DNA from: an uncultured Prevotellaceae bacterium
GTDB taxonomy: Bacteria > Bacteroidota > Bacteroidia > Bacteroidales > Bacteroidaceae
DNA: 64,000 nt
Assembly (NCBI GenBank): GCA_902762565.1
Contig: CACWOS010000003.1
Location: forward strand, 25,868-89,867
Direction: 5' to 3'
Positions within the stretch are counted from its first letter, which is position 1. The number at the start of each line of letters is the position of its first letter. Below are positions 4,195 through 22,989 of this stretch, in pieces. A program made the position numbers and the translations under genes. Under the pieces are notes generated by a model. That model searched no databases, was not told where the DNA came from, and saw nothing but the letters and a program-made list of their open reading frames with translations.

Positions 4195-5049
4195 ATGAAA
4201 GTAAATTATAGTAGCATTTTTTCGACATTGTTCGTGTTGTCATTTCTTGCATGCGGTAATGGTACTGGGAGCCAGCAGACACTGGTAGATTCATTACAAG
4301 AAGCTTTAGACCATCGTAATGAAGAATATCGTCAGTTAGACGAGTATTTGACCATTATCTCAAGTAGTCTAGATACTATTTCCAAGCAGGAGAGTGATAT
4401 CTTTAATGCCAATCAGGAGAGCCCTGCACCTAATCGTGAGAAAATCAAGAAGGACTTAGAGACTTTCCAGCAAAATCTGAAAATTCAGCGTGAGCGTATC
4501 TCCAAATTGGAACAGCAGTTGAAAACCCAAAAAGATGGCAATCAGAAGTTGCAAGCTATTATTAACTCTTTGAAGACTCAACTTGCTGAAAAGGAGACCC
4601 AGATAGCTAATCTTCGCAACGAGGTTAGTAAGAAGGATGCAAATATCGATGAGTTGTACAAGAATCTGAGCGAGATGATGTATGTGAATAAACGTCAACG
4701 TGATCTTATAGGGTCACAGCGTGAAATGATTGCCTCTCAAGATGAGCTTATTAACCAGGGTTTTATCAAGATTGGTTCTAAATCAGAGTTGAAAGAATCT
4801 GGTGTACTGACAGGTGGCTTCCTCAAAAAGTCGAAAGTTGACTATTCACAGGTTGACAAGAGTAAGTTCTTTGCTGTTGATATACGTAAGTTTACAGAAC
4901 TTGACATCAACTCCAAGAACCCGAAGATTCTAACTAATGTACCTGAAGAGTCATATATCTTAGATCGTAATGGCGATAAGATGAAGTTACGCATTATCGA
5001 TCCAGAACGTTTCTGGAGTGTCTCGAAATACCTGATTATTCAAATATGA
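4195..5049 (+). CDS. Coiled-coil lipoprotein, function unknown
   Basis: The 284-residue product has a type II signal peptide with lipobox SFLAC (Cys20), then a long heptad-rich region from about residue 35 to 185 that is rich in Gln, Glu, Lys and Leu and should form an extended coiled coil. A compact C-terminal domain of about 90 residues ends in ERFWSVSKYLIIQI. I do not recognise a characterised family; similar lipid-anchored coiled-coil proteins are common in Bacteroidota. It is followed after 7 bases by a DUF4384-type protein and the pair ends at a strong hairpin, so they form a two-gene operon. A periplasmic or surface scaffold is plausible but not shown. Confidence 0.75.
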   Translation: MKVNYSSIFSTLFVLSFLACGNGTGSQQTLVDSLQEALDHRNEEYRQLDEYLTIISSSLDTISKQESDIFNANQESPAPNREKIKKDLETFQQNLKIQRERISKLEQQLKTQKDGNQKLQAIINSLKTQLAEKETQIANLRNEVSKKDANIDELYKNLSEMMYVNKRQRDLIGSQREMIASQDELINQGFIKIGSKSELKESGVLTGGFLKKSKVDYSQVDKSKFFAVDIRKFTELDINSKNPKILTNVPEESYILDRNGDKMKLRIIDPERFWSVSKYLIIQI

Positions 5050-5056
5050 TATTCTG

Positions 5057-5956
5057 ATGAAGAAATTATTAATAACCTTGCTTGTTCTATTGCCTTGCGT
5101 GGTTATTGCGCAGACACGCAAGGTAAGTGGTACATTCACTTACTATGCCAATCCCAGTATGTCGGTCAAGCAGGCAATGGCAGCTGCTATTGAGAATGCC
5201 AAAATTCAGGCACTGGCCAAAGAATTCGGCACTTCGTTACAGCAAAACACTATTTCGCAGATAGGAAAGACTGGTTCAAGGGAGAATGAGTCTTTCAGCC
5301 AATTGAGTTTTGAGGAGGTTAAGGGTGAATGGATAGAAGACACTAAGGAGCCAGAGACAAAGATTACTGCAACGATGAATGACGGTACTCTGATCATCGA
5401 GGCTAAGGTTTGGGGTAAGGCTAGAGCTGTTACTAATAAGGCTGCTGAATTTGAGGTCATGACTCTTCGCAACGGCACCGATAAGAGTTTTGCCAGTCAG
5501 GAGTTTGTAGAAGGTAATATGCTTTATACCTATTTTATTGCACCTGCTGACGGATATGTTTGCATCTATCTTCTTGATGAGAGCAATACTGCCTATTGCC
5601 TGCTACCTTATGGTGGTGATGCAGATGGGCAGCAACCCGTCAAACATGGTCAGGAGTACATCTTCTTTTCGAGGAAGTTCCCCTACGACGTTGCTCCTGC
5701 TGTTGTCGATGAATATCCTCTGACTTGCGGCGATGAATTTGTAGAGCACAATCAGTTATATGTGATCTATTCACCTAACCCTTTTACAAAGGCTGTTGAT
5801 CGTCAGGCTGGGAAAAAGGTGAATGTTAACGATAAGGAGTTAGCTGTACCACGACAGCTTAGTTTTGATGATTTCCAAAAGTGGCTGAGCAGACTCAGTG
5901 CACGCGACAAGGAGGTAGGAAAGAAAATTATTCGTATTTCCATCAAGAAGCAATAA
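5057..5956 (+). CDS. Secreted DUF4384-type protein
   Basis: The 299-residue product has a standard signal peptide (cleavage near VIAQ). An N-terminal region of about 110 residues resembles LPP20-like lipoprotein folds (AMAAAIENAKIQALAKEFGT). From about 130 to 240 is a beta-rich DUF4384-like domain (YTYFIAPADGYVCIYLLDE, followed by YCLLPY). DUF4384 domains are often coupled to caspase-like or kinase signalling proteins in other bacteria, which is interesting because a caspase-family protein is encoded about 6 kb away, but no direct link is visible. It is co-transcribed with the lipoprotein upstream. The stop codon lies at the foot of the terminator stem. Confidence 0.7.
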   Translation: MKKLLITLLVLLPCVVIAQTRKVSGTFTYYANPSMSVKQAMAAAIENAKIQALAKEFGTSLQQNTISQIGKTGSRENESFSQLSFEEVKGEWIEDTKEPETKITATMNDGTLIIEAKVWGKARAVTNKAAEFEVMTLRNGTDKSFASQEFVEGNMLYTYFIAPADGYVCIYLLDESNTAYCLLPYGGDADGQQPVKHGQEYIFFSRKFPYDVAPAVVDEYPLTCGDEFVEHNQLYVIYSPNPFTKAVDRQAGKKVNVNDKELAVPRQLSFDDFQKWLSRLSARDKEVGKKIIRISIKKQ

Positions 5957-6000
5957 AAAATAAGACTTGCAACACAGTAATGGTGCAAGTCTTATTTTTT
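5955..6000. terminator. Perfect 17-bp hairpin terminator between convergent operons
   Basis: Arms 5955-5971 and 5984-6000 are exactly complementary, with a 12-base loop. A-rich left and T-rich right ends give U-runs in both directions, so it can terminate the plus-strand DUF4384 operon and the minus-strand fimbrillin/caspase operon. Confidence 0.9.
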
Positions 6001-6021
6001 ATTGCTTAGTACTTATAACCT

Positions 6022-7293
6022 TTATTGTTGTACCTTTGGAGCTACAGGCCTTACGTTACAATTATAGTTCTGGGGGACACTACCAATGTAGAAAGCTCTG
6101 CCGAAGAATTCGTTGTAGAACGACAGTTCAAAAACGTAACTTTCTTCAGTATCGGAGGTAAGATAGAATCCGTAATTGCCATTATGGCTCAATGTTTGAT
6201 TGGCATCCTTAATACCGCCTGCAGGCAGGAAAATGCTGTTGCCGTTAGCGAGGCTGGTAACCTTGAAACCGGCATTTTGGCTGTCCCAAGTCCAATCGCA
6301 CTGTGTCAGCAGTTCCTGCATATCAGCCTTTGTCGGCATGCGCCATACACCCTTCCAGGTAGCTTTAACAGCATCGTCTTCGTTCCATGACATGTAATCG
6401 CCAATCTCGTATGCAGTGCTGGCTCCCATATTGCAGGTGGACCACAATAGACCGCTCTTCAAGCCTAAGTCGATGTATGGATGGCCATTGTATGGATCTT
6501 CCTTGATAGTGACGTTGAGCGTATATTGCTGCCCCATCTTCAGGGCAGGCAACTCGACATCGAAGGGGAATGACCTCTCGTTGTCGTAGGTGAACACCAA
6601 ATGAACCATTCGGCTCTCATCAGGTAACAGCAATACGTCCTGTTTCACTGTCTTGGCAGCAACAGCATCGGTCGTGATGGTCAGTGGAGCCTCAATAGTC
6701 GCTACGCTTTCAGGATAGCCAACCAACAAGGGTTGGGCATTCTCAGAGTTGTAGGTAAATCCACCCTGTTTGTAAATCTTTTCGCCAGACAACTGGATGG
6801 TGTTCAGTTTAGCCTCCTTCTTATAGGTAACGTTCAGGCGCAGCAGACATAGTGCATGCTGGAACTGGATGTTAGCCTCTGGAGCCTTGTTGTTAACTTC
6901 GACATCTGAAATGCCATAGAGGAAGTTCTCCTGTGCTGCAAGATCAACTCCTATAACGGGCATGGCGGGATTGAAGTCTTCCTTATAGGGATAGTAGGCA
7001 ACTACACGGGTCTGTGTGGAACCCAGAATGATATTGTTGGTGTTCAACTGCTTACCATTCCATTCGGAGGCTACGTTCATATACGTATTGCCATAAGCCG
7101 GCAGAAACAGCCCGACTTTGTCGCCATTGGTAAATGTCGTATCGTTAATGGCTGCCCTTGTAGTTGGCAGTTGGGCGTTGATGCTCAGAATGGCTGGAGC
7201 GTCGTCGCCAACAGCAGTCATCTCGAAATCGTTGCTGCATGCCCATAGCATCGTGGCAGCAATCAGTCCTAAGAATATGTTATGTTTTCTCAT
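6022..7293 (-). CDS. Fimbrillin-family lipoprotein fused to a Fib_succ_major-type domain
   Basis: This is the last gene of the seven-gene operon. Its 423 residues start with a lipoprotein signal (lipobox MLWAC, Cys19), followed by a fimbrillin-like (Mfa-like) region to about residue 280 with typical features: PTTRA shortly after the anchor, YYPY, and FQHALCLLRLNVTY. From about residue 285 a second module reads IDLGLKSGLLWSTCNMGAS, then GVWRMPTKADMQELLTQC and a C-terminal NVRPV. This is the signature of the Fibrobacter-type major paralogous domain, often found at the tips of Bacteroidota surface proteins. The fusion suggests an adhesive tip subunit, which is inference. The gap to the upstream fimbrillin is 19 bases. 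Confidence 0.85.
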   Translation of the reverse strand: MRKHNIFLGLIAATMLWACSNDFEMTAVGDDAPAILSINAQLPTTRAAINDTTFTNGDKVGLFLPAYGNTYMNVASEWNGKQLNTNNIILGSTQTRVVAYYPYKEDFNPAMPVIGVDLAAQENFLYGISDVEVNNKAPEANIQFQHALCLLRLNVTYKKEAKLNTIQLSGEKIYKQGGFTYNSENAQPLLVGYPESVATIEAPLTITTDAVAAKTVKQDVLLLPDESRMVHLVFTYDNERSFPFDVELPALKMGQQYTLNVTIKEDPYNGHPYIDLGLKSGLLWSTCNMGASTAYEIGDYMSWNEDDAVKATWKGVWRMPTKADMQELLTQCDWTWDSQNAGFKVTSLANGNSIFLPAGGIKDANQTLSHNGNYGFYLTSDTEESYVFELSFYNEFFGRAFYIGSVPQNYNCNVRPVAPKVQQ

Positions 7294-7312
7294 TATTCTG
7301 TCAAATTAAGGG

Positions 7313-8296
7313 TTAGTCCATATTCCAAGTGTTCTCAATATTACCTTCGCCATTGTTGCTCCAATCCAGAATGGTGGAACTGCCAACAGAGATGGCTACC
7401 GGCATGTCCTTAGACGTGTCAATAGTGACGGGATAGACATAGCGGCTGTTGGATGACCATGTTGTATATGGAAGCTCAACACTATATACATTTCCGCCAA
7501 TAGTCAGTTCTAAAGTTACGCGATTGTATGAATTTATACTGGTAGGAACGACTAGCAGGTCGATAGTCTGTGAATCCTCCGACAATGTAATAGTCTTTTT
7601 GAGTGTCAGCGTGGCGGCTTCACGGTTTGCGTAAATCATACTGAGCATAGACTCAAGGAAAGAGTCCCATATATGAGTATTGTCTTCATTATGGGCAATA
7701 ACATATGCCATCTCTTTGGCAATATCTGCCAATTTAGTACTATCACACTTGACACTGATAGCGCTACCTTTTTCAATGTTCTTCAGCGAGATGCATGTCA
7801 ATTGTTCGCTACCGTTCTGCTGTTTTAATACAAACGATATGCGGGCCAGTGCATGATGGAACGTCATGGGTACTTTCGGGTATGCTGCGTTAATAAAAGC
7901 TCCTTTTGCCAAATTTGGCGTACCTATCAAAATGTCACACTGATCACCATTTTCATCGGGTGTAATATCAGCATCCTTAAGATTGGCTAAACCAATGAGG
8001 CCTACATTAGCGCCACTTAATTTAACCGTTGGGTTGATTGACCAGAATCCTGCTGCATTGTACTCTGCCCAAGCATAGTTAATGTTATTGGCTGCACCGC
8101 TAACGAAGAGTTCCACCATACTACCGGCACTGAAGCTAGTGGCTTCAATGATTGAACGGGTAGTGGATATATCCGTAGTCAACTGGAGGTCAGCCGTTTT
8201 TGCCATATTGTCGCTGCCTTCTTCAGAAGAACACGACACCAGTCCCAGCAACGCTGTTGCCAAGGACATCATGATTGTATATCTTTTCATCTTCAT
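7313..8296 (-). CDS. Fimbrillin-family lipoprotein
   Basis: The 327-residue product has a type II signal peptide (lipobox LVSC, Cys22) and then a fimbrillin-type two-part beta-sandwich. A STTRS motif follows the anchor at about residue 45. The family helix segment appears as MTFHHALARISFVLKQ, and the C-terminal sheet as YSVELPYTTWSSNSRYVYPVTI. Family knowledge: Mfa/FimA-like pilins and anchors are lipidated, exported and polymerised by donor-strand exchange. The start could also be the third codon (MKRY). It is the sixth of seven genes, 39 bases downstream of another fimbrillin. Low sequence identity to its neighbours suggests distinct subunits rather than recent duplicates. Confidence 0.85.
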   Translation of the reverse strand: MKMKRYTIMMSLATALLGLVSCSSEEGSDNMAKTADLQLTTDISTTRSIIEATSFSAGSMVELFVSGAANNINYAWAEYNAAGFWSINPTVKLSGANVGLIGLANLKDADITPDENGDQCDILIGTPNLAKGAFINAAYPKVPMTFHHALARISFVLKQQNGSEQLTCISLKNIEKGSAISVKCDSTKLADIAKEMAYVIAHNEDNTHIWDSFLESMLSMIYANREAATLTLKKTITLSEDSQTIDLLVVPTSINSYNRVTLELTIGGNVYSVELPYTTWSSNSRYVYPVTIDTSKDMPVAISVGSSTILDWSNNGEGNIENTWNMD

Positions 8297-8335
8297 AACC
8301 TATACATATTAATTAGATTTTGATGTGGCATATCC

Positions 8336-9232
8336 TTAATTGATATTGCTATCCTTCCAGACATCCAGACCGTTTTGGATATTAGAATCCCAAGGCACAA
8401 TCGTCCACTCGCCAGCCTCAAGTTCGCCGAGGTGGTTGATAGTCAGCGTAATGTCGTACTGTGTATTGGCATAATAATTCTTTTGGGGTAGAGTGGCTGT
8501 CTTTTCTGTGCTGCCGTGAAGCGAAAGTGTAGGAGTCTGATTGCCAGGCAAAATTAAAAAGTCTGCCTCAATAGCATTGTTGTCTGTCAACTCGTTATTC
8601 TGTGGCTTCAGATAGATAGAGCCGCTTTTATCCTTTCCAACATTGGTGTTGAACCCTGCTAAATCGTAATATCCTTCTTTAAAGAGATTATTCATCTCCA
8701 AACCATAGAAGTTGTAATCGGATGTGTTGCCAACAGCCTTCTTTACTGTTACATGGATACGCGCAAAAACATGTTTCATGCTCAGTTTAGCATAAGGAGA
8801 ACTTTCTGTAGCACTTCCGTAATAAGAGGTGAATAACAGGTCTGTCTGAGAGGTGAGGCTCAAGGGAAAGCCTTGCTCTAACGCTGACATGGTCAGGTTC
8901 TTATTGTATGGATAATATGCATACACGTAGCAGGTACCATTCTCAGGGATATACACTAGCTGATCGAACTTACTGTTACCATCTAAATAGGTTACCTCTC
9001 GGTTGAAGCCATCCTCTAATACGTTGTTGTAGAGATAAGATGTGCTTTTGGTGACAAATACGCCATACGCGCTGTTGTTGGGGAGGGTAGAACCTTCAAC
9101 TACTGAACGGGTGATGCCATCAAACTCAATTTGCAGAGGCACGCGGCTTGTATTGCCGCCAGCCTCGTTCTCCTCACTGCTGCAGGCGAGCAGCAGTGGG
9201 AGTGCAAGAAGTGATAATATTGCTTTTTTCAT
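8336..9232 (-). CDS. Fimbrillin-family lipoprotein
   Basis: This 298-residue lipoprotein has signal MKKAILSLLALPLLLAC (Cys17). An ATG 24 bases upstream would overlap the preceding stop and put a polar octapeptide before the signal, so I chose the start at 9232. Fimbrillin features are ITRSVV after the anchor, YAYYPYNKN, MKHVFARIHVTVKKA, and a C-terminal beta strand pattern NTQYDITLTINHLGELE. The ending GEWTIVPWDSNIQNGLDV is typical of the family. It lies fifth in the operon, after the FN3-like lipoprotein. Together with two further fimbrillins this gives three candidate pilus or surface-fibre subunits. Confidence 0.85.
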   Translation of the reverse strand: MKKAILSLLALPLLLACSSEENEAGGNTSRVPLQIEFDGITRSVVEGSTLPNNSAYGVFVTKSTSYLYNNVLEDGFNREVTYLDGNSKFDQLVYIPENGTCYVYAYYPYNKNLTMSALEQGFPLSLTSQTDLLFTSYYGSATESSPYAKLSMKHVFARIHVTVKKAVGNTSDYNFYGLEMNNLFKEGYYDLAGFNTNVGKDKSGSIYLKPQNNELTDNNAIEADFLILPGNQTPTLSLHGSTEKTATLPQKNYYANTQYDITLTINHLGELEAGEWTIVPWDSNIQNGLDVWKDSNIN

Positions 9233-9248
9233 ATCGTTTCTGTTCTGT

Positions 9249-10658
9249 TTAGTCATAAATATCTATATCGGTATTGCCGCCGTTGCTCCAAGGCTGCACA
9301 TATACATCACTGACGGAAATTGACACGTCGGTACGTGTGTAATTGACAGTGATATCATAGTTGTACTTCTTTCCATACTCCCAACTGGTTGAGGGTAGTG
9401 TGACAGGAATGACCTCAGTCTTCATGTTAGTCGAGTTGTTCAACGTGATGTTCACTTTTACCTCATTTTCACCGAACTTGACAGGTATCAACGAGTTGAA
9501 GTAAACTAATGAGTTCTTCTCGTAGTTCAACGCAATTTTCGTGGACTTTGACCATGTGGCAGCATTGTTCTTAATGAGTGTCATCGTACCATTGGTCAAG
9601 TCAAATGTTGCATTGGTGCAAATGGCCTCAGCCTTTTCTGCATTAGCTATCTCAACCTGAGTGATGTACTTTGACGAGGTGGCACCGTTGGTTGACTTGC
9701 AACTAATGTTCAGATTAACCTGATAGGGCAGCAGTGTTGTCATCGGACAGCTGACCTTGTTGTTGGTCGGGCTTATCTTGGCATGACCATACTCGAAATA
9801 CTTGTCAGTATAATAAATAGGTATAGCCTTGTAATTAGTGTAGCTCTTATTATAAGGCTTATAGACATAGACGTCAGCCTCGCCTGAAATATTGCCTGAC
9901 CATGAAGTGCCCGACCAGTTGCTGGCGTATGTATAGTTATCGCTAACAATCCAGAAACCTGCATAGTTTGAATAGAATTCAGAACCAGTCAGATCTACGT
10001 ATGCATTAGCCTGAGTGGTAAATTCTTTCACTGGCGAGTAGTAGGGCGTTGTGCCGTATGGTAGCGTTACCTTTGCGCGTACATAGTACTTTGTGTTGTC
10101 GTTCAACTTTAGTGTTGCATTGTAGTTGTTGCCGTAGCGGGAACCAGCCATTTGTTGGGCATTGCTCATATCGGCATTGGTAGAGTATTCGAAAGTGACT
10201 TCACAGTCGCTACGTCCCCAATAGTAAGATACATATGCACTATAGGATGTGATTTCGCTGACAGTAATCTCGTTGGTGATTTCGTTTGTCTTAAACTCTG
10301 TGACAGGACTCTGCACGAAACCGTGCGGTTTTCTCAGGCATAACTGTACGTAATAGGTTGTGGCAGGCAGCAGGTCTGTCGAACTGGTGTAGTATCCGCT
10401 GCTCATACTTGCATTCAACTCTTTTGAATCACTCATGTCGGACGATGTGGACAGCAAGTAATAGGCGCGTTCAATCCCATTATCGTTGAGACTTGGGTAT
10501 TGCAGTGTCACGTTCAGTACTTGTTTCACATTCTGCTTAACCGTCACCCCACCCAGCGTAGGCACATTGTTATTGGGCTCTTGTACGTCCTGACATGACG
10601 TCAGCATGGCACCGGCACTGACCAGGCATGCCAATAAGATAAATATATACTTTTTCAT
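9249..10658 (-). CDS. Lipoprotein with FN3-like domains and a fimbrillin-like C-terminus
   Basis: This 469-residue lipoprotein (lipobox MLTSC, Cys22) begins with two fibronectin-III-like repeats at about 30-125 and 130-215. Both carry the 'ATTYYVQL/NTKYYVRA' strand and end in 'TEFKT/KEFTT'. The remaining 250 residues are rich in Tyr, Ser, Asn and Thr and finish with KYNYDITVNYTRTDVSISVSDVYVQPWSNG, a fimbrillin-like ending of NYDITVNYT type. This arrangement suggests a surface-exposed anchor or adhesin. It starts 12 bases after the stop of the barrel protein and ends 16 bases before the next fimbrillin. No specific ligand can be inferred. Confidence 0.75.
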   Translation of the reverse strand: MKKYIFILLACLVSAGAMLTSCQDVQEPNNNVPTLGGVTVKQNVKQVLNVTLQYPSLNDNGIERAYYLLSTSSDMSDSKELNASMSSGYYTSSTDLLPATTYYVQLCLRKPHGFVQSPVTEFKTNEITNEITVSEITSYSAYVSYYWGRSDCEVTFEYSTNADMSNAQQMAGSRYGNNYNATLKLNDNTKYYVRAKVTLPYGTTPYYSPVKEFTTQANAYVDLTGSEFYSNYAGFWIVSDNYTYASNWSGTSWSGNISGEADVYVYKPYNKSYTNYKAIPIYYTDKYFEYGHAKISPTNNKVSCPMTTLLPYQVNLNISCKSTNGATSSKYITQVEIANAEKAEAICTNATFDLTNGTMTLIKNNAATWSKSTKIALNYEKNSLVYFNSLIPVKFGENEVKVNITLNNSTNMKTEVIPVTLPSTSWEYGKKYNYDITVNYTRTDVSISVSDVYVQPWSNGGNTDIDIYD

Positions 10659-10670
10659 GTCTTTTGTTTT

Positions 10671-11432
10671 TTAGAAGTAAATACCAACACCGAAATTACC
10701 TTTTAAGTAATCCTTAATTTCTTTGGTGTTTGCTTGTACACCGGCTTGTACGTAGAAACGGCTAACTCTTACCATGAGTCCAGCGTCAACCATCACGCCG
10801 CTATAGCAGTCAGGTGTCTCCCAATAATCACCATTTTGATATTCCCAGTAGATGTTACGTTCCTCATAACCACATCCGGCATAGAGATAAAATGGTCCGT
10901 AAGCGCGACCGATAAGACCTGCAGAGGCCCCCCAGTACCTGCGCTTCTCATTGCCATTGAACCATCCTTCGTTGTAGTAGGGGTAGCCGTCTATCGGCTT
11001 GCCGTTGAATTGCCCCTTCAGATAGAAACCGTAGTCCTTGACAACACCGACCATTAGACCTGGTGCTGCATACTTCGGGTTTGCATCAGGGAATACTGCG
11101 CTGATGCCTGCGAAAATCTGGTACTTTTCCGGCTTGTAGTTCAGCCATGAACTCTTCCCCATCTTGATGGTCATGCCGTCCTTGCCTTTCTTCGTAGTAG
11201 CATCCCATCCGGCATACTCGGCACGCAATTTGGGATTGTTCTTATTGGTCACAATAGAGAATGTACCATCCATATTGGTGAGCACACTCTCGTTGGTGCC
11301 TTTAACTTGCACCTTGGCTCCAGGCATGGGGACACCCTTGGTATCGGTTACTGTGCCCGTTATGGCGGTTTGCGCCATTGATGGCATAGCTAACGTTGCC
11401 AGAGCCACACTCAACATTAATAGTTTCTTCAT
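10671..11432 (-). CDS. Small outer-membrane-type protein with N-terminal carboxypeptidase-regulatory-like domain
   Basis: From MKKLLMLSV, which begins a clear signal peptide cleaved near SMAQ, the product is 253 residues. Residues about 21-90 form a carboxypeptidase-regulatory-like beta-sandwich (AITGTVTDTKGVPMPGAKV, then LTNMDGTFSI), as found at the N-termini of SusC-like and other outer-membrane proteins. From about 100 to the end the sequence alternates polar and aromatic residues and ends in Phe (NFGVGIYF), typical of an 8-10 stranded outer-membrane barrel. An upstream in-frame ATG at 11489 would add 19 charged residues inside the preceding gene, so I rejected it. It is third in the operon and could be the membrane gate or anchor for the locus (inference). 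Confidence 0.75.
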   Translation of the reverse strand: MKKLLMLSVALATLAMPSMAQTAITGTVTDTKGVPMPGAKVQVKGTNESVLTNMDGTFSIVTNKNNPKLRAEYAGWDATTKKGKDGMTIKMGKSSWLNYKPEKYQIFAGISAVFPDANPKYAAPGLMVGVVKDYGFYLKGQFNGKPIDGYPYYNEGWFNGNEKRRYWGASAGLIGRAYGPFYLYAGCGYEERNIYWEYQNGDYWETPDCYSGVMVDAGLMVRVSRFYVQAGVQANTKEIKDYLKGNFGVGIYF

Positions 11433-11461
11433 ATTGATGTATTGTAATTTATGTTCTTTGG

Positions 11462-14005
11462 TTATTGATTCATCTTCATTTCGCCCCATTCACTGCCTAA
11501 ACCAGGCGCGCTGATAACGGTAGGTGTCTGTGGCTTTTTGTTAACCACAGTTGACTTCTGTCTGACCTTCGTCTTGATGTAGTTGCCTAAATCAGATAGC
11601 GTCACGTTACCTTTGGTCTCTTGTAGCTTCTTAAGCAGGTAGTAGGTGAAGAGTCCGTGACTCTTTTCCTTGTAGGGCATAGCTGTTTCGTTGCCGCTGG
11701 CTGCCGAGAAGATGACCATATTTCCCATGGGCAACTCTTCTTTGGGGCTGATGGCTACACCTCGTGCTGCCACCAGCATGCCGTCGTCACGCTTTGAACC
11801 GCTAAAGCAGGCATCTAAGAATACCACTACAGAGTGGGCTTTCAGGGCACCTAACTGGCTGTACAATTTCTTCAGTGAGTAGCATCCGTCAGTCTGCTTG
11901 CCATCAGCGTCGATTGGCAGCAGGAAGGCATCCTTGGTCTGTTCATTGGGAATACCATGACCGGCATAATAGAAGATAACCTTTAGGTCGCCTTGATAGG
12001 CGGCAGCAATGGATTCTATGTCGCGTAATGCACGGATCATGATACCATACGACGCATCCTTGTAGAGACGGATATTGTCCTTTGGCAGCCCGAGAGTCTT
12101 CTCACAGTACTTGGCAAATGTCGTTCCGTCATTCTGTGCCATCGGTACACCAGCTACCATGCTGTAATTTTCGTTACAGATGATAACGGCAAATGTCTTG
12201 TCGTTCTTTACTTTTGTTTCAGGAATGTTGAGATCGACATCCGATGCTCCAACGGATACTTTTTTCTGCTGTCGTGTTGCAGCGTTTTGCCTGCTTTGCT
12301 GATTGCTGGCAAAGAGACTGTTGTCCAATTTGTCAAACTGTACGTCAACTACGGTCTCCGTATAGTTGAGGCTCTTGTCGCCTGTAAACTGATAGGTTTT
12401 TCCTGCAGGCGTAGTAAACGTCAAACTAGCAAGTGTCAGCCTGTCTCCTGAAATATAGAACTGCGGATTGCTGAACTGCATGCCGTTCCAGCTGCTTTCA
12501 AACGAACGAGCCTCGTTGTTCTCACGTGGTACAGGAACGATGAGCTCACCGTATTTTGACTCAATAAGGAATACGCGGTTCTCTGCATCGTATGGACGCA
12601 ATACCATGTCACGTCCAAATCGGATGTTCTTGGTGTAACTGTTGATATACTCCTTTTCTGCTGATGCCAATAGTTCCTTGACCTTAGCTTGGCGGCTTTC
12701 TTCAGTTACGCGGGTACGGTATTCCTCTGCTGTTTCGTATGGGTCTTTGGCCTGCCATTTCTTAAGACGCTCTTCTACGAACTTCTTTGCATACTCCGAA
12801 TACAGCGGTAGCTCCTCCTGCTGTTGGACTGCGGGAGAGGCTGATGCAGACTGGCTGCTTGCGATACTTGGCGTGTTAGCCAGTGTGTTCTGAGTGGCAT
12901 AGGACAGTGCCGTTGGTGCCATTCCACAGCTGACGGTTACACCACCCATGGCTGTCACTCGTTTGTTGGCTTCTGCCAATTTGCCCGTCTGCTCAGAGAA
13001 TAGGTAGGATATAGCCAATGCTTGTGCATATTTCAATGAGTTTGTTTCCGCACGTGTTATCTCCTCTAATTCTTTGGCAGCCTCGGTAAAATACTCCTTG
13101 GCCAACTTTTGGTTTCGTTTCGCATTGTTGCCTGACTCGGCAGCAGTATGATAGGCAATTCCCATGTTGTACTCGCAAATGGCAATATGCTTTGCCAAAT
13201 CCAAACTGCGAGGATTTGTGACACGTAGTTTCTTATATATTTCCAAAGATTGTTCGTATTGCTGAGTCTCTTCATAAAGCTGTGCCTGCAGTTTCATGAG
13301 GTCGGTGTTCGAGGGCTGATACGTGAGCGCTTTGGTCAAGTAGCGCTGCATGGCTGCATAGTCTTTGCTATCCATGCAGATATTGATAGCCTGTTTCAGG
13401 ATGTTGATGTTCGACGGGTTGTTGTTCACCACCTCATCGAGAATCTCCTTGGCTGATGTATAGTCCTTGGCCTTTACGCAAGCGTCCATCATAAACGACA
13501 GCACGTCACGTCTGTGCTTTTGTTCGCCTGTCGAGAGATAGGCCTTGAAATATGGTATCACGCGCTGGTAGTCACCGCTGTTGTATGTGTTGGCAGCAGC
13601 ATTATAGGCTATCAGTGGATAGTTCGATGAACGCTCGAAATCCGTACCAGCCATGACGGGCATCATCTGGATGTCCAGATATGCCTGTGCAAAGAGCATG
13701 GCGTTGGTCCTTTGTCGTTGTGAGGCATTATAGATGTATGCCTTCTCAATCCAGGGGCGCATCTCCGACAGCGTGGTACGCAGTTGGTTATAGTCTGCCG
13801 AACCAGTACTGACAGTCTTTGCTTCTAGCTTTAAGGCTTCGTAGCTCTGCCATAGGGTAGCGTAAGCTGTGCCTGGGTTTCCGCCATTGATCTGACTGAG
13901 GAACTGCTTGAAAAGGCTGCAACCATATTGCACCCCTGTTTGGCCCCAGACGCCTATTGGCAGGAGAACCGCCATGAGCATGATGTATATGATACGTTTG
14001 TTCAT
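11462..14005 (-). CDS. Exported TPR protein with C-terminal caspase (C14) domain
   Basis: The 847-residue product has a signal peptide (cleavage near VWGQ). TPR-like helices occupy about 40-340, with clear repeats around DYTSAKEILDEVVNNNP and QYEQSLEIYKKLRVTNP. A middle domain spans about 399-540. A caspase-fold peptidase domain covers about 600-810. The catalytic dyad is visible: His683 in FYYAGHG and Cys733 in FLDACFSG. NENY and the GNETAMPY/HGLFTYYL segments also match the family. The middle domain is clearly related to the middle domain of the WD40 protein encoded just upstream. Most bacterial caspase-like proteins are cytosolic; this one carries an export signal. Basic P1 preference would be expected for metacaspase-like members, but that is inference. 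It starts 18 bases after its upstream neighbour. Confidence 0.9.
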   Translation of the reverse strand: MNKRIIYIMLMAVLLPIGVWGQTGVQYGCSLFKQFLSQINGGNPGTAYATLWQSYEALKLEAKTVSTGSADYNQLRTTLSEMRPWIEKAYIYNASQRQRTNAMLFAQAYLDIQMMPVMAGTDFERSSNYPLIAYNAAANTYNSGDYQRVIPYFKAYLSTGEQKHRRDVLSFMMDACVKAKDYTSAKEILDEVVNNNPSNINILKQAINICMDSKDYAAMQRYLTKALTYQPSNTDLMKLQAQLYEETQQYEQSLEIYKKLRVTNPRSLDLAKHIAICEYNMGIAYHTAAESGNNAKRNQKLAKEYFTEAAKELEEITRAETNSLKYAQALAISYLFSEQTGKLAEANKRVTAMGGVTVSCGMAPTALSYATQNTLANTPSIASSQSASASPAVQQQEELPLYSEYAKKFVEERLKKWQAKDPYETAEEYRTRVTEESRQAKVKELLASAEKEYINSYTKNIRFGRDMVLRPYDAENRVFLIESKYGELIVPVPRENNEARSFESSWNGMQFSNPQFYISGDRLTLASLTFTTPAGKTYQFTGDKSLNYTETVVDVQFDKLDNSLFASNQQSRQNAATRQQKKVSVGASDVDLNIPETKVKNDKTFAVIICNENYSMVAGVPMAQNDGTTFAKYCEKTLGLPKDNIRLYKDASYGIMIRALRDIESIAAAYQGDLKVIFYYAGHGIPNEQTKDAFLLPIDADGKQTDGCYSLKKLYSQLGALKAHSVVVFLDACFSGSKRDDGMLVAARGVAISPKEELPMGNMVIFSAASGNETAMPYKEKSHGLFTYYLLKKLQETKGNVTLSDLGNYIKTKVRQKSTVVNKKPQTPTVISAPGLGSEWGEMKMNQ

Positions 14006-14023
14006 GCTTGTGTTGTTACTGGT

Positions 14024-16099
14024 TTAAAAAGCGTCTTCGAAAATGTAGTCCACGAAGATACGGCGGAACTGACCACCGACACCTTCTGCCTCTTCAACAT
14101 GTGTCTCGTAACTGGTGTCCATCGTCTTCAAAGCCTGAACTCCTTTTTGCATGGCGTTCTTCATGCCCATAGCACGCAGGAATGCCAGTTCCTCGTTGGT
14201 GCGGATGCCTGAAGCCTTGGTAACGTTCAGCGTTGTAGCCGTACCATTGGCTGTGACAGGAACATCGGTAAATTCACCATATTCGTTACGATAAGGTAGA
14301 GTCTTCTTGATAGGTGTGGCATCAGCAGAGCCCTTGATGACAATCTTCACTTTCTTGCCAGGTTGTACGTAACGGGCAAAGTCCTTCTGCATGGCCTGAT
14401 TGATGATATTCAGCATGGTCTGTGCAGCTGCCGACTGCTCAGCCTTGTACTGTCCGGGAGCAAAATCCTCGCGAGCCGAGAAAGCTGCATCCACAGCGTA
14501 GTCGAAACTGACTTTGTAGTTGACGTGACGCTTACCATCGGCATCAGTCTCAGTGATGGTCTTGGTGCTGACGTTAATCTTGGTATGATCTGACAACTTC
14601 TGCTGAACCTTAGCCGTGGTCACCATTTCGTTTTTCATCTCGTCTAATGCCATCTCGTCCATAGCACCTTGACGGGCTATATCTAGAGGTAGGAAGTTGT
14701 TGTCCTCCTTCAGATAGTCTAACGACTGGCGTCCGCGGTTGTCGTAAGTATAGCTCTTACCCGTGTTCTTATTGTAGATGTCGGCATACAATAGTTCGAA
14801 CTTGTCGTTCTTACCTACGCCATAGACAGGGTTACGCAATTCGATGTCATCGGGATTCATAAAATAGCGCAGATCTTCCTTGGGCACGTCAATATAGATG
14901 GAAGGCATGTCACCAAGGTCGAGTGCCATCATGTTGGTCTCTGGGTTATAGTTTCCTAACGACATCTGGGGGGCAGAACCATAGTCTGATGCCATTCTTG
15001 TGGCAATCTCCTCTTCAAATAAACGCATCTGTGCAGCACGTGTCTCGTCGTTCACACGCATCATGTACTGCTCGTCCGTCTCCTCAGGCATGCGCTTTTC
15101 CCATTCTGCCATACGGGCTTGCACCTCGTCGTCCAACAACTTGGTCAGGTAGGGGGGCAGTTCGTTCATCTGCTTGTAGTGTATGGAGTTGACGGTGTTA
15201 TAAACCAGATATAGGGCTCCGCGCTTATCCTTGGCAAAAAGCAGGTCGGTTACACCACCTTCGGCAGCGTCAACATATATGCGGTCTGTATCGTCAATCA
15301 AATTGACGAAGGCAATGCGTGAGTCGCCAGTTATCACTGCCACATACTTTCCGTCTGGATGGAATTCGCAGTCACGACCTTCGCCCAAAGACTGTATATT
15401 TAGTTTCTGGTTAAAAGCCTGTGTGTCGAACACCTTCATCTGGCCGTCGCTGCTAAGCAGGGCAATCTCCTTAGAGTTCTTTGAGAATGCGAATGCAGAC
15501 AGGTTGCCTTCAACGGCAATATCTGCACGCAGAGACTTGTCATCCATACCAACAACAACAAGACGCTGTCCGTTGGAAGCTGCTAACATACTGCCGTCGT
15601 TGCTGAAAATCAGTTTGCTTGCTTCGAAGGGTAGCATCGTCGTTTCCATTTGTCTGTAGTCATTCAAACGGAAAAAAGCAACCCACCCCTTTGTATCAGC
15701 TACAGCCAAACGTGTACCATCAGGCGTAAAGCAGCAGGTGGTTACTACATCATTCATCTTGGTAGTACCCAACTTCTTGTTCTTTTTCCAAAAGTCATAG
15801 ACGCTAACTACTTTCTCATTGTCTTTCACTACAGCATAGCTATTGCCTGACGGACTGACAGACAAAGTACGAATCTGCTTGCCAGAGGACAGCAGCTGTC
15901 CTCCGCGAAGGTTCGTTACGTTTTGGCCTGCCACAAAGATGGTGTTGTTCTGATAGTTACCCAGTAAAGTGGGGGTGGCTGTCTGTTGATATGCATCGTC
16001 CTGTCCGTTGAGTATCAATGCTTCTTGCGCTGATATTGTCAGCGAAGGTGCTACTGCACAAAACAGGAAAAGACAGCACTTCTTAGTAATAATCTCCAT
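14024..16099 (-). CDS. Exported WD40-like propeller protein with shared middle domain and OmpA-like C-terminus
   Basis: First gene of the operon. I chose MEIITKKCC at 16099 because the upstream ATG at 16147 lies within the promoter. The product has 691 residues. A signal peptide ends near ISAQ. A beta-propeller covers about 70-310, with repeats such as CCFTPDGTRLAVADTKGWVAFF and LIFSNDGSMLAASNGQRL. A middle domain at about 313-459 is shared with the caspase protein. The last 110 residues resemble a divergent OmpA/peptidoglycan-associated domain (VKIVIKGSADATPI, NEELAFLRAMGMKNAM, GQFRRIFVDYIF). The architecture suggests a periplasmic scaffold bound to the cell wall that positions the caspase protein. 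Confidence 0.8.
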   Translation of the reverse strand: MEIITKKCCLFLFCAVAPSLTISAQEALILNGQDDAYQQTATPTLLGNYQNNTIFVAGQNVTNLRGGQLLSSGKQIRTLSVSPSGNSYAVVKDNEKVVSVYDFWKKNKKLGTTKMNDVVTTCCFTPDGTRLAVADTKGWVAFFRLNDYRQMETTMLPFEASKLIFSNDGSMLAASNGQRLVVVGMDDKSLRADIAVEGNLSAFAFSKNSKEIALLSSDGQMKVFDTQAFNQKLNIQSLGEGRDCEFHPDGKYVAVITGDSRIAFVNLIDDTDRIYVDAAEGGVTDLLFAKDKRGALYLVYNTVNSIHYKQMNELPPYLTKLLDDEVQARMAEWEKRMPEETDEQYMMRVNDETRAAQMRLFEEEIATRMASDYGSAPQMSLGNYNPETNMMALDLGDMPSIYIDVPKEDLRYFMNPDDIELRNPVYGVGKNDKFELLYADIYNKNTGKSYTYDNRGRQSLDYLKEDNNFLPLDIARQGAMDEMALDEMKNEMVTTAKVQQKLSDHTKINVSTKTITETDADGKRHVNYKVSFDYAVDAAFSAREDFAPGQYKAEQSAAAQTMLNIINQAMQKDFARYVQPGKKVKIVIKGSADATPIKKTLPYRNEYGEFTDVPVTANGTATTLNVTKASGIRTNEELAFLRAMGMKNAMQKGVQALKTMDTSYETHVEEAEGVGGQFRRIFVDYIFEDAF

Positions 16100-16134
16100 A
16101 TTTTTTAATATTAATAGTTTTAACGTTTGATTTG

Positions 16135-16165
16135 CAAAAATACCCATTCTTCATGATATGTGCAA
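16135..16165 (-). promoter_or_regulatory. Promoter of the seven-gene caspase/fimbrillin operon
   Basis: On the minus strand TTG (16163-16165) and TATTTTTG (16135-16142) are separated by 20 bp. The first gene starts 36 bases downstream of the -7 box. No other promoter with both boxes was found within the following 10 kb, and gaps between the seven genes are 12-39 bases. Confidence 0.7.
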
Positions 16166-20638: not shown

Positions 20639-20978
20639 AGATGAACGCTTGCTCCAGCAGTTTTTTAGCGAAGCAGCAAACCAGACAATAGAAGACAACG
20701 GTTTCACAGAACGTGTGATGAGCCAGTTGCCAGTTGCTTGTCATACTCAGCAAAAGCGCTTTCTGCGTATATGGAATACTGTTTTCATTACCCTCTTTGT
20801 TGTACTGTTCATCGTCTTTCATGGTTGGGAGTTACTGGCTGTCCAGTTCGAGGTGATGTTGCGTACGCTGGCAACACAATCGTTCAGCATCAATCTGCTG
20901 ATGCTGTTCTCAATAGTGTTCGGCCTATTGTTGGTAGGTACAGGTGAGGTTATTTCTTCGGAGTTAGCCCGTAAGTAG
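20622..20978 (+). CDS. Small membrane protein coupled to the ECF sigma factor (DUF5056-like)
   Basis: The 118-residue product has a soluble N-terminus of about 45 residues (INKDERLLQQFFSEAANQTIEDNGFTERVMSQLP) and two membrane helices at about 48-68 and 88-110. The start at 20622 overlaps the sigma stop by 17 bases; ATG at 20628 is an alternative. The N-terminal pattern resembles short Bacteroidota DUF5056 proteins found downstream of sigma factors. An anti-sigma role is suggested by position and membrane topology only. The last 29 bases overlap the 3' end of convergent porE. Confidence 0.7.
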   Translation: MDMINKDERLLQQFFSEAANQTIEDNGFTERVMSQLPVACHTQQKRFLRIWNTVFITLFVVLFIVFHGWELLAVQFEVMLRTLATQSFSINLLMLFSIVFGLLLVGTGEVISSELARK

Positions 20979-22989
20979 TTCTCAGCACAATAAATTCTGT
21001 ACGACGATTCAGCTGGTTGCATTGCTCCTGCTGTTCCTCGTTCTCTAGCGTCTTGATGAATTCTTCCGTCAAGACGTCGTTCTCTTTTAGGAAGGGATAC
21101 TTCTCCGTCAGTTTCTTGCGCACAGTCTTGGGCTTCTCCTTGCCATAACCCATTGGTGTCAGACGGTCTGATTCGATACCTTGTTCCACCAGATACTGCA
21201 CTACCGTCTCTGCACGTTTTTGTGACAGTTGTTTGTTGTATTCAGCTGGACCCTTGTAGTCGCAGTGTGCACTGAGTTCGATGGTTACGTTAGGATTTTC
21301 CTTAAGCAGTACCACCAACTTATCGAGTGACTCTTTCGATTCTGGACGCAGGGTGGCTTTATCGAAATCATAGAAGATGTTGTCTATCATCACTGGAGCA
21401 GTAATGGAGGCCAATGGGAACTGAAGTACATATTCCGTCGATTCATCGACTGAGTCGACGCGCAATTGTTCCTGATGGTTCAGGAACCCCTTGCAGGTGC
21501 CTAATAGTACATAGTCTACGTTAGGCTTGATTTCCTGTACAAATGACCCGTCGCCTTTTACACTGAGTTTCAGGTTTGTTCCATCGTTGCCAATCAGATA
21601 TACCTGTGCCTGAGGCAGTTCATAGCCTTCGGCCTCATATACCCAACCCTTGACGGTTTGGATGATATCGGGCTTCGCAAATGAGTAGATGTGGTCCCAG
21701 CCCTTGCCGTCACCACGATTCGACGAGAAGAAACCTTTGTTCTTCATACCTTCGAAGGTCATGCCGAAGTCGTCGCCCTGCGAATTGAGCGGATAGCCTG
21801 GGTGTTCGATGACATAGAGTTGGGCATTCTTCGAAATGTTATCATGAGTCTCAATAGGTTTGGCAATATAGATGTCCAAACCACCCATGCCCTCATGTCC
21901 ATTACTCGAGAAGTAGAGGTCGCCATTAGGACGGAATGTGGGGAACATCTCGTCGCCTGCTGTGTTGATGGGGGCTCCAAGGTTCTCGACACCTCCCAAA
22001 CCACTACTGGTCAGACGTACGCGCCAAATGTCGTATCCGCCCTTGCCGCCAGGCATGTTACTTGTAAAGTAGAGCCATTCGCCATCGGGACTGACAGCAG
22101 GGTGAGCGTAGGCTGATAGCGTGTCGCGTGTCAGTACCAGTTCTGTAGCTTTGCTCCATGCAGCATCCGAACGTTGACTAGTGGCGATATTGGCATAGCG
22201 TGGATACTGGCCATCTGTTTTGCATTGCGTCAGGTACATGGTTCGTCCGTCGGGTGTGAACGAACAGGCACCTTCTTCACCATCACTGTTCAACTCAGAA
22301 TCTATGACCTCAGGACGTTGCCATTTGCCCTTGTCGTCTTTTATGGAAACAAAGATGTCGGCATTCTTCGTGCCAGTGATGCCACTTAATTCGTCGCCCT
22401 TGGCCTGATTGCGTGTAGAAGTGAAGAACAACTGGTTAAAGTCTTCACCCGTCAGCATGGGCGAATATTCCGAACGTCGTGAGTTAAAGAAGTTCTCACG
22501 CTTGACGATATACCGAGAACCTTCCTCCTTCCAGATTGGTGCTTTCTGAGCTGAACGTAGTCCAGCCTTTGCCTGTTGTTCGTAACTTCGTGAATCCTTG
22601 AAGGCGTAACTTTTAATAGAATCCAATGCTGTCTGGTAGTTCTTGGCAGCTTCTTTGTAGTTTCCGCTCTTCATCAACTGTTCAGCCAAATGCAGATAAG
22701 TCAACGAGTCTGTCTGTTTATAACGAACAGCATTGTTGTAGGCCGCAATAGCTTTCTGTGTGTAGTTGATGCGTCGGTAGCTTTCAGCCATCTTTAACGC
22801 TCGCTTACCTCTTAGTGCTCGCTCTTTGGCAGGCGTCTGTGAGTAAGCTTTCTTATATTGTGCTGCAGCATCATAATATTCACCAAGGGCATAGTATTTA
22901 TCCCCTTTTTTCATAGCTTGTTCTGCACCACATCCCGTTAAGATTACTAACAGGAAACAGCCGAATGCTAATAGCCAATAATTCTTCAT
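20950..22989 (-). CDS. porE: PorE-like T9SS component: TPR, WD40-like propeller, CRD and OmpA domains
   Basis: A 679-residue lipoprotein (lipobox LTGC, Cys20). Domains in order: TPR-like helices at about 24-150 (KKGDKYYALGEYYDAAAQYKKAY), a PD40/WD40-like propeller at about 170-440 (SFTPDGRTMYLTQC, AVSPDGEWLYFTSN, TFRPNGDLYFSSNG, GFFSSNRGDGKGWDHIY), a carboxypeptidase-regulatory-like domain at about 450-530, and an OmpA peptidoglycan-binding domain at about 550-675 (IFYDFDKATLRPES, LSQKRAETVVQYL, NRRTEFIVL). This exact order is that of Porphyromonas gingivalis PorE, which links type IX secretion to the cell wall. It lies last in an operon with folE, a SPOR protein and tpiA. Confidence 0.85.
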   Translation of the reverse strand: MKNYWLLAFGCFLLVILTGCGAEQAMKKGDKYYALGEYYDAAAQYKKAYSQTPAKERALRGKRALKMAESYRRINYTQKAIAAYNNAVRYKQTDSLTYLHLAEQLMKSGNYKEAAKNYQTALDSIKSYAFKDSRSYEQQAKAGLRSAQKAPIWKEEGSRYIVKRENFFNSRRSEYSPMLTGEDFNQLFFTSTRNQAKGDELSGITGTKNADIFVSIKDDKGKWQRPEVIDSELNSDGEEGACSFTPDGRTMYLTQCKTDGQYPRYANIATSQRSDAAWSKATELVLTRDTLSAYAHPAVSPDGEWLYFTSNMPGGKGGYDIWRVRLTSSGLGGVENLGAPINTAGDEMFPTFRPNGDLYFSSNGHEGMGGLDIYIAKPIETHDNISKNAQLYVIEHPGYPLNSQGDDFGMTFEGMKNKGFFSSNRGDGKGWDHIYSFAKPDIIQTVKGWVYEAEGYELPQAQVYLIGNDGTNLKLSVKGDGSFVQEIKPNVDYVLLGTCKGFLNHQEQLRVDSVDESTEYVLQFPLASITAPVMIDNIFYDFDKATLRPESKESLDKLVVLLKENPNVTIELSAHCDYKGPAEYNKQLSQKRAETVVQYLVEQGIESDRLTPMGYGKEKPKTVRKKLTEKYPFLKENDVLTEEFIKTLENEEQQEQCNQLNRRTEFIVLRTTYGLTPKK

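Follow-up and report, generated by a model that had tools for sequence, protein, structure and literature searches.

What would a caspase-type protease do outside the inner membrane, and why is its gene found in one operon with fimbrillin genes? Bacterial caspases are mostly discussed as cytosolic effectors of cell death or defence. The question is raised by a locus within a 64,000-nucleotide stretch of DNA from an uncultured Prevotellaceae bacterium, herein referred to as the window. A caspase that is probably tethered to the cell wall, together with a dedicated partner, would give this protease family an envelope role in gut and rumen Bacteroidales, and the locus also bears on which protease matures the fimbriae of Bacteroidales outside Porphyromonas.

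Organization of the operon

The seven-gene unit of the original prediction is real: seven genes on the minus strand (g1 to g7), running from 16099 to 6022, were confirmed by ORF calls and Pfam, and the Pfam domains are essentially those noted earlier. A signal peptide or lipobox was recognized by eye on all seven products, in agreement with the earlier claim. The features of the operon and its surroundings are listed below.

16135..16165, minus strand: promoter of Bacteroidota type, TTG-N20-TAnnTTTG (consensus match)
14024..16099, minus strand: g1, predicted exported protein with WD40 propeller, shared domain and OmpA-like domain (Pfam, AlphaFold, relatives in 49 loci)
14690..15172, minus strand: shared domain in g1 (blastp 5e-8, hhalign)
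14027..14602, minus strand: OmpA-like C-terminal region of g1 (D593, N635 and R642 invariant; profile comparisons)
11462..14005, minus strand: g2, predicted exported protein with TPRs, shared domain and caspase (Peptidase_C14) domain (Pfam)
12326..12823, minus strand: shared domain in g2, shortened in some relatives (blastp, hhalign)
11465..12238, minus strand: caspase domain of g2, residues 590-847 (Pfam, alignments)
10671..11432, minus strand: g3, carboxypeptidase-regulatory-like domain (CRD; Pfam, alignment), then a possible outer-membrane barrel (by eye)
9249..10658, minus strand: g4, lipoprotein from a family with FN3-like and fimbrillin features (relatives match PF13149)
8336..9232, minus strand: g5, fimbrillin lipoprotein, first ATG at 9256 (PF13149, 3.3e-19)
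7313..8296, minus strand: g6, fimbrillin lipoprotein (PF13149, 1.5e-14)
6022..7293, minus strand: g7, fimbrillin lipoprotein (PF13149, 3.2e-19) whose C-terminus resembles Lcl_C, at a score under that profile's cut-off
5950..6005, minus strand: terminator hairpin between convergent units (-31.7 kcal/mol, z -10.6)
5057..5956, plus strand: DUF4384-like protein, predicted exported, convergent to the operon (PF14326, 5.9e-5)
4195..5049, plus strand: lipoprotein of the Cbp1 family, ending 7 bp short of the DUF4384 gene (NCBIfam NF052320 at 201.7 bits, over a cut-off of 90)

Both borders drawn originally were supported. The sequence TTG-N20-TAnnTTTG, which we take to be the Bacteroidota promoter consensus, has a single minus-strand match between 4100 and 18394, and this match is the promoter proposed upstream of g1. 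Since the earliest ATG (ORF to 16147) falls inside this promoter, translation of g1 most likely starts at 16099. A sigma-70 promoter scan, which uses the wrong consensus for this DNA, gave 26 promoter-like sites vs 24.0 in shuffled sequences and was discarded. At the other end, the predicted hairpin was computed to be a strong terminator, with an outer stem of 22 pairs. The convergent DUF4384-like gene (PF14326 at 23.5 bits, under the cut-off of 27) and the domain common to g1 and g2 were both absent from the original prediction. The Cbp1-family lipoprotein is a possible accessory of the system. For g3, the phyletic profile of the barrel was uninformative, as 364 of 393 genomes have a match to its CRD part, in most cases in a frame of about 1000 aa. 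A true PorE gene (NCBIfam NF052230) was observed on the minus strand at 20950-22989, about 5 kb upstream of the operon.

Active site of the caspase protein

The g2 protein has the caspase fold (Peptidase_C14), and its catalytic dyad of H683 and C733 is invariant in all 49 caspase rows, in line with the intact dyad noted earlier for this predicted exported protein. Residues D365 and D462 of MALT1, which we take to be S1 (Arg pocket) residues together with E500, align with D626 and D731 of g2, both being invariant among the aligned rows; no acidic counterpart of E500 was found at the aligned position of g2. g2 may thus be a protease with an intact dyad, and the alignment with MALT1 suggests that its P1 specificity would be for Arg or Lys.

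Distribution of the conserved core

Within the genus of the window, g1 was detected at E below 1e-60 in 11 of 299 genomes, the window's own genome included. All of the ten other loci (L037-L046) carry the caspase gene next to g1 and a DUF4384-family gene beside the pair. No fimbrillin was found near the pair in any of the ten by searching with the window's own proteins, and the PF13149 matches of these genomes sit on contigs other than that of the g1-g2 pair.

Scanning of a species-genome collection with the g1 alignment yielded 50 loci, 49 in Bacteroidales and one in Verrucomicrobia (L106, with a weak propeller match), which was left out. The ten loci of the genus recur among the 49, and thus the two sets overlap. 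The g1-family gene and the TPR-caspase gene are direct neighbours on one strand in all 49 loci, with the caspase preceding g1 in L070. By six-frame profile search, DUF4384 was detected in 36 of the 49 loci; 24 encode a protein of a 210-aa family and 22 one of a 490-aa family, the CRD barrel turned up in 16, and members of a CHASE2 family and Cbp1-type lipoproteins in 12 and 3, respectively; several of the 13 loci in which DUF4384 was not found end near the caspase. The name CHASE2 rests on one scanned member (7.6e-20) and 'transglutaminase-like' on a sub-threshold match (19.8 bits, where the cut-off is 23) in one of the four proteins scanned from the 490-aa family, and the 210-aa family gave no Pfam match over cut-off. 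A run of caspase, DUF4384, 210-aa and 490-aa genes was observed to recur in L067, L083, L084, L086 and L089, and also in L091, L093, L095, L171 and L172. Relatives of the Cbp1-type lipoprotein adjoin the WD40-caspase pair in L078, L094 and L105.

Among 60 relatives, counting the caspase at E 1e-20 or better and the DUF4384 protein at E 1e-10, the caspase was present in 10 and DUF4384 in 7, all 7 being among the 10 (hypergeometric 3.1e-7, for genomes that are not independent), and DUF4384 was missing from 3 of the caspase genomes. The DUF4384 gene is probably a core partner of the g1-g2 pair; in the window, this gene lies on the other strand in convergent orientation.

Of 393 Bacteroidales genomes sampled, 127 contain the caspase domain and 10 the OmpA-like domain. 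Seven of the latter carry the WD40-caspase pair, two a fusion to caspase and one no caspase nearby, indicating that the caspase family is more widespread than its partner, while the partner occurs almost exclusively with the caspase. In one fusion, the OmpA-like and caspase domains form a single 733-aa protein followed by DUF4384 (L169:3549-5750); the other is a 418-aa protein on a short contig (L167:1324-2580). The OmpA-like protein of L168 is without caspase, and its genome is not among the 127 caspase carriers. No match to the fimbrillin profile was detected in the nine OmpA-like regions fetched from this sample. The conserved unit is smaller than seven genes and consists of g1 and g2, probably completed by DUF4384.

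The partner protein g1 and the domain shared with g2

The AlphaFold model of g1 gave a mean pLDDT of 86.3 and a pTM of 0.65, and the matches listed by Foldseek against PDB and BFVD were mainly propellers. In the C-terminal region, D593, N635 and R642 are invariant in 44 of 44 aligned rows and align by hhalign with the corresponding D, N and R of OmpA, although D593 and N635 are set apart by an insert of about 34 residues. The likeness to PF00691 (OmpA) is remote, the profile being matched by 9 of 28 scanned members of the g1 family (best 4.5e-4), with no Pfam OmpA match for the window's own g1; against an alignment of seven OmpA domains from the same genome, the g1 C-terminus gave an hhalign probability of 82.4. 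The ligand residues of PorE are Asp576, Asn584 and Arg591 according to the available part of its description (PMC7192894), and the distance of 7 residues between Asn584 and Arg591 is the same as that between N635 and R642. Judging from these residues, the OmpA-like domain of g1 would bind peptidoglycan.

Proteins without a propeller but matching the C-terminal half of g1 were also observed, at L040:12423-14180, L092:12012-13769, L100:12022-13779, L101:4676-6430, L102:9398-11179 and L104:5881-7668. In L040, L092 and L100, such a protein is encoded by an additional gene that separates g1 from the caspase gene, and the N-terminal part of those inspected (in L040 and in the L046 copy of L101) has by eye the look of an outer-membrane barrel.

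The middle domains of g1 and g2 are homologous by blastp and by hhalign (probability 99.3, E 4.8e-20). This shared domain, about 150 residues long, comes after the propeller in g1 and after the TPRs in g2. It gave no convincing match to PDB sequences (best E 0.26) and a weak KTSC hint in 11 of 26 members (best 1.1e-4). Where present, it is a candidate docking domain of the two proteins. Less than 30 residues of it are left in 6 of the 49 caspase rows, and neither the L174 and L175 caspases nor the two OmpA-caspase fusions showed any sign of it. As the domain is shortened, undetected or absent in some members, docking through it cannot be universal. Its lack in some pairs, together with an earlier count of OmpA domains in caspase operons (see below), slightly lowered our confidence in a caspase complex.

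Distribution of the fimbrillin cassette

The g5, g6 and g7 proteins match PF13149 with 70.3, 55.1 and 70.4 bits, respectively (cut-off 27). No PF13149 match was obtained for g4 itself; four of its five scanned relatives (L061, L062, L064 and L057, but not L058) carry this domain, and therefore the cassette probably includes four fimbrillin-type lipoproteins. The three fimbrillins described originally are g5 to g7; g4, described as FN3-like, belongs to an FN3-like family that is probably also of fimbrillin type.

General co-occurrence of all seven genes in Bacteroidales, which the original prediction proposed to look for, was not observed. Among the 45 rows of the g1 tree, the cassette is present in 10 (nine loci and the window) and absent in 30, with 5 rows unjudgeable at contig ends. 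The order g1, g2, g3, cassette is kept in all ten cassette rows, and only 5-20 bp separate g3 from the cassette in eight of the nine loci, the ORF ends overlapping in L059. Three loci (L057, L058 and L059) match the window operon gene for gene, and the cassette is reduced in L061-L066, with one to three of its genes in Bacteroides timonensis (L061), Candidatus B. pullicola (L062), L064, L066 and others. In L057 and L062 the cassette continues into DUF4384 after a gap of 13 bp; a DUF4384 frame follows it in L064 (six-frame search), and in L065 DUF4384 comes after the cassette and the 210-aa gene. L065 was scored as cassette-positive, its protein being FN3-like/Lcl_C without PF13149 match, and L074 was set by hand to 'no cassette', its fimbrillin-profile ORF being encoded on the other strand, at a distance of 4.4 kb from the caspase. 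With 10 of 40 judgeable rows, always directly after g3, the association with fimbrillins is not accidental, but it is confined to a clade and not a general one.

The trees do not include the five loci in which no g1 ORF exceeds 600 aa (L093, L101-L104). On the g1 tree, the cassette rows need 3 changes vs 9.1 for shuffled labels. The free tree splits these rows into two groups; a single cassette clade was nevertheless not rejected, p-AU being 0.10 with the undecided L060 in the group and 0.11 with L067 added. A concatenated quick tree, run without L097, L098, L105, L093 and L101-L104, was less favourable to a single clade, needing 4 changes by the same group count that gives 3 on the g1 tree, or 3 vs 2 when the undecided rows were left out. 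On these distributions, the cassette is a stable, clade-limited addition, of one or several origins, to the part of the operon past g3.

The operon of exported caspase, WD40/OmpA-like protein and fimbrillins put forward in the original prediction therefore recurs, in full or in reduced form, but is not general. The caspase and WD40 genes usually occur without fimbrillins, in 30 of the 40 judgeable rows and, in searches with the window's own proteins, in all ten other g1-carrying genomes of the genus, and on these counts a general seven-gene system was rejected. A cultured strain has been identified for either form: Bacteroides timonensis AP1 (L061) carries the set with fimbrillins, Prevotella sp. 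P6B1 (L100) the g1-g2 pair without them. The view that fimbrillins are never linked to the g1-g2 pair was overturned by the wider scan of the species-genome collection.

The TR motif and processing of fimbrillins

The original prediction also suggested that the caspase is the maturation protease for the fimbrillins of its own operon, cutting after the Arg of a TR motif and gating fibre assembly. This we consider unlikely. The genes do share one operon in the fimbrillin clade, the acidic residues aligned with S1 are conserved, TR lies 24-26 residues after the lipid-carrying Cys in g5, g6 and g7, and gingipains mature FimA and Mfa1, as stated in the available part of PMC11316588. As a clue to caspase substrates, however, the motif is non-specific. 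TR within 60 residues after the lipid Cys was found in 17 of 28 linked proteins (one of them, L074, spurious; shuffle mean 5.0), in 29 of 39 fimbrillins not linked to the g1-g2 pair, from genomes that with few exceptions contain this pair (shuffle mean 7.9), and just as commonly where the genome lacks this caspase (14 of 24 fimbrillins; shuffle mean 3.4). This control came from 15 genomes without caspase-domain match, 8 of them with PF13149; 30 loci were fetched and 6 dropped for want of a lipobox or a usable start. TR is a general feature of fimbrillins and was rejected as a caspase substrate mark. Maturation by the caspase also fits poorly with the usual lack of fimbrillins beside caspase and g1, and lipoproteins at the surface may not meet a wall-anchored protease. 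Moreover, the window's genome contains four matches to C11 (clostripain-family) peptidases on contigs C39, C52 and C86, which could be alternative candidates for an Arg-specific cut.

Other readings of the locus

Assignment of TPR, WD40, CRD and OmpA-like modules to g2, g1 and g3 could also point to a PorE-like scaffold for secretion or surface assembly, with the caspase as its processing subunit. The four module types are those of PorE in the available text of PMC7192894, here spread over three genes, and the true PorE gene is nearby. That neighbour, however, scores 1110.9 bits for PorE, whereas g1 gave no NCBIfam match up to E 0.1; the module order differs, and no translocon gene was recognized among the seven genes by Pfam. 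A PorE-like scaffold is thus rather improbable.

A device for defence or cell death, of the kind proposed for other bacterial caspases, in which damage to the envelope would set the caspase free, we likewise regard as improbable. The patchy distribution of g1 in the genus and the CHASE2 partner of 12 loci agree with such a device, as does the match of the g2 caspase domain to the PADLOC caspase model (1.3e-8). Among the six proteins scanned with PADLOC (g4 to g7 being outside the scan), however, this domain alone matches a caspase defence model, the other proteins giving nothing or matches of 1e-4 and weaker. The core proteins are predicted to be exported, and neither a pore gene nor a nucleotide-signal gene was recognized by Pfam among the seven.

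That the cassette simply lies downstream of an unrelated caspase operon is very improbable: it is lacking in most judgeable rows, but follows g3 directly in nine other loci, B. timonensis and Candidatus B. pullicola included, and is itself followed by DUF4384 in L057, L062 and L064, and in L065 beyond the 210-aa gene.

A proposed envelope caspase complex

The reading that we prefer, with a chance close to even, is that the core forms a peptidoglycan-anchored periplasmic caspase complex and that the cassette is its lineage-specific surface arm. Membership and order of the genes, export signals, the intact dyad, natural fusions and co-occurrence are observed in the sequence itself. On this basis, a caspase-type protease of gut and rumen Bacteroidales is predicted to act outside the inner membrane together with a partner resembling cell-wall-binding proteins. 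In the proposed peptidoglycan-anchored complex, g1 would provide the tether to peptidoglycan through its OmpA-like domain and a surface for protein contacts through its propeller, while g2 would bring the TPRs and the caspase, the homologous middle domains of most g1-g2 pairs serving for docking. DUF4384 and, in other loci, the 210-aa protein, a possibly transglutaminase-like protein and the CHASE2 protein would be accessories. An envelope cue transmitted through the propeller, the TPRs or g3 might then induce cleavage by the caspase after Arg or Lys. In the window's clade, the fimbrillin-type cassette would most likely form a surface sensor or fibre coupled through g3, and the fimbrillins may be substrates, sensors or output of the complex.

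The fuller proposal, a new envelope protease machine in which a caspase kept at the peptidoglycan by a propeller/OmpA-like partner reads a signal from the outer membrane or the surface and performs limited proteolysis, with a dedicated fimbria-like organelle as sensor or output in one lineage, is tentative and, taken as a whole, somewhat unlikely. If true, it would represent a caspase signalling pathway outside the cytoplasm.

Comparison with known systems

Gingipains belong to family C25 and are encoded away from the fimbrillin operon, and fragipain belongs to family C11, not C14. In the system of FimA/Mfa1 with gingipains, too, the organism that makes the fimbrillin lipoproteins also has a protease of clan CD (PMC11316588, available part), but the C14 protease described here lies inside the fimbrillin operon. 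Fragipain of Bacteroides fragilis, a clostripain-related cysteine protease, cuts Arg-Ala in partner proteins, and a scaffold is not mentioned in the available part of its report (PMC8406203). PorE (PG1058) of the type IX system resembles g1 to g3 in its TPR, WD40, CRD and OmpA-like modules and in the Asp/Asn/Arg ligands (PMC7192894, available part); the present system differs in the distribution of the modules over three genes, in the added protease and in the lack of an NF052230 match for g1 (NCBIfam up to E 0.1). Among the NTP-dependent conflict systems with caspase effectors (VMAP, iSTAND), some iSTAND carry OmpA-type peptidoglycan-associating parts, as far as the available text of PMC7159879 goes. 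Components such as vWA, MoxR or other NTPases form the basis of these systems, and Pfam recognized none of them in the seven genes.

Prokaryotic metacaspases and orthocaspases (Peptidase_C14) likewise possess a caspase domain with the His/Cys dyad. The available part of a metacaspase survey of 2012 (PMC3501461) gives WD40 and TPR as the domains that most often accompany the caspase, describes N-terminal helices as possible signal peptides, and counts OmpA domains in 14 of 217 metacaspase operons; these 14 may or may not include the g1-g2 pair. No word beginning fimbri, Mfa or periplasm occurs in the survey. In open-access titles and the starts of abstracts, for which absence is weak evidence, an architecture with caspase, WD40/OmpA partner, DUF4384, CHASE2 or fimbrillin was not found described. 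Unlike the surveyed metacaspases, the present system has its propeller/OmpA-like part in a protein of its own, one domain of which recurs in the caspase protein, and fimbrillins follow downstream. The neighbourhood of caspase and OmpA has thus been counted before, with no mechanism stated in the available part of the survey (PMC3501461); what may be new here is the envelope form of a caspase-homologue system, as predicted from sequence, with a partner sharing a domain with the caspase protein and with clade-limited fimbrillins.
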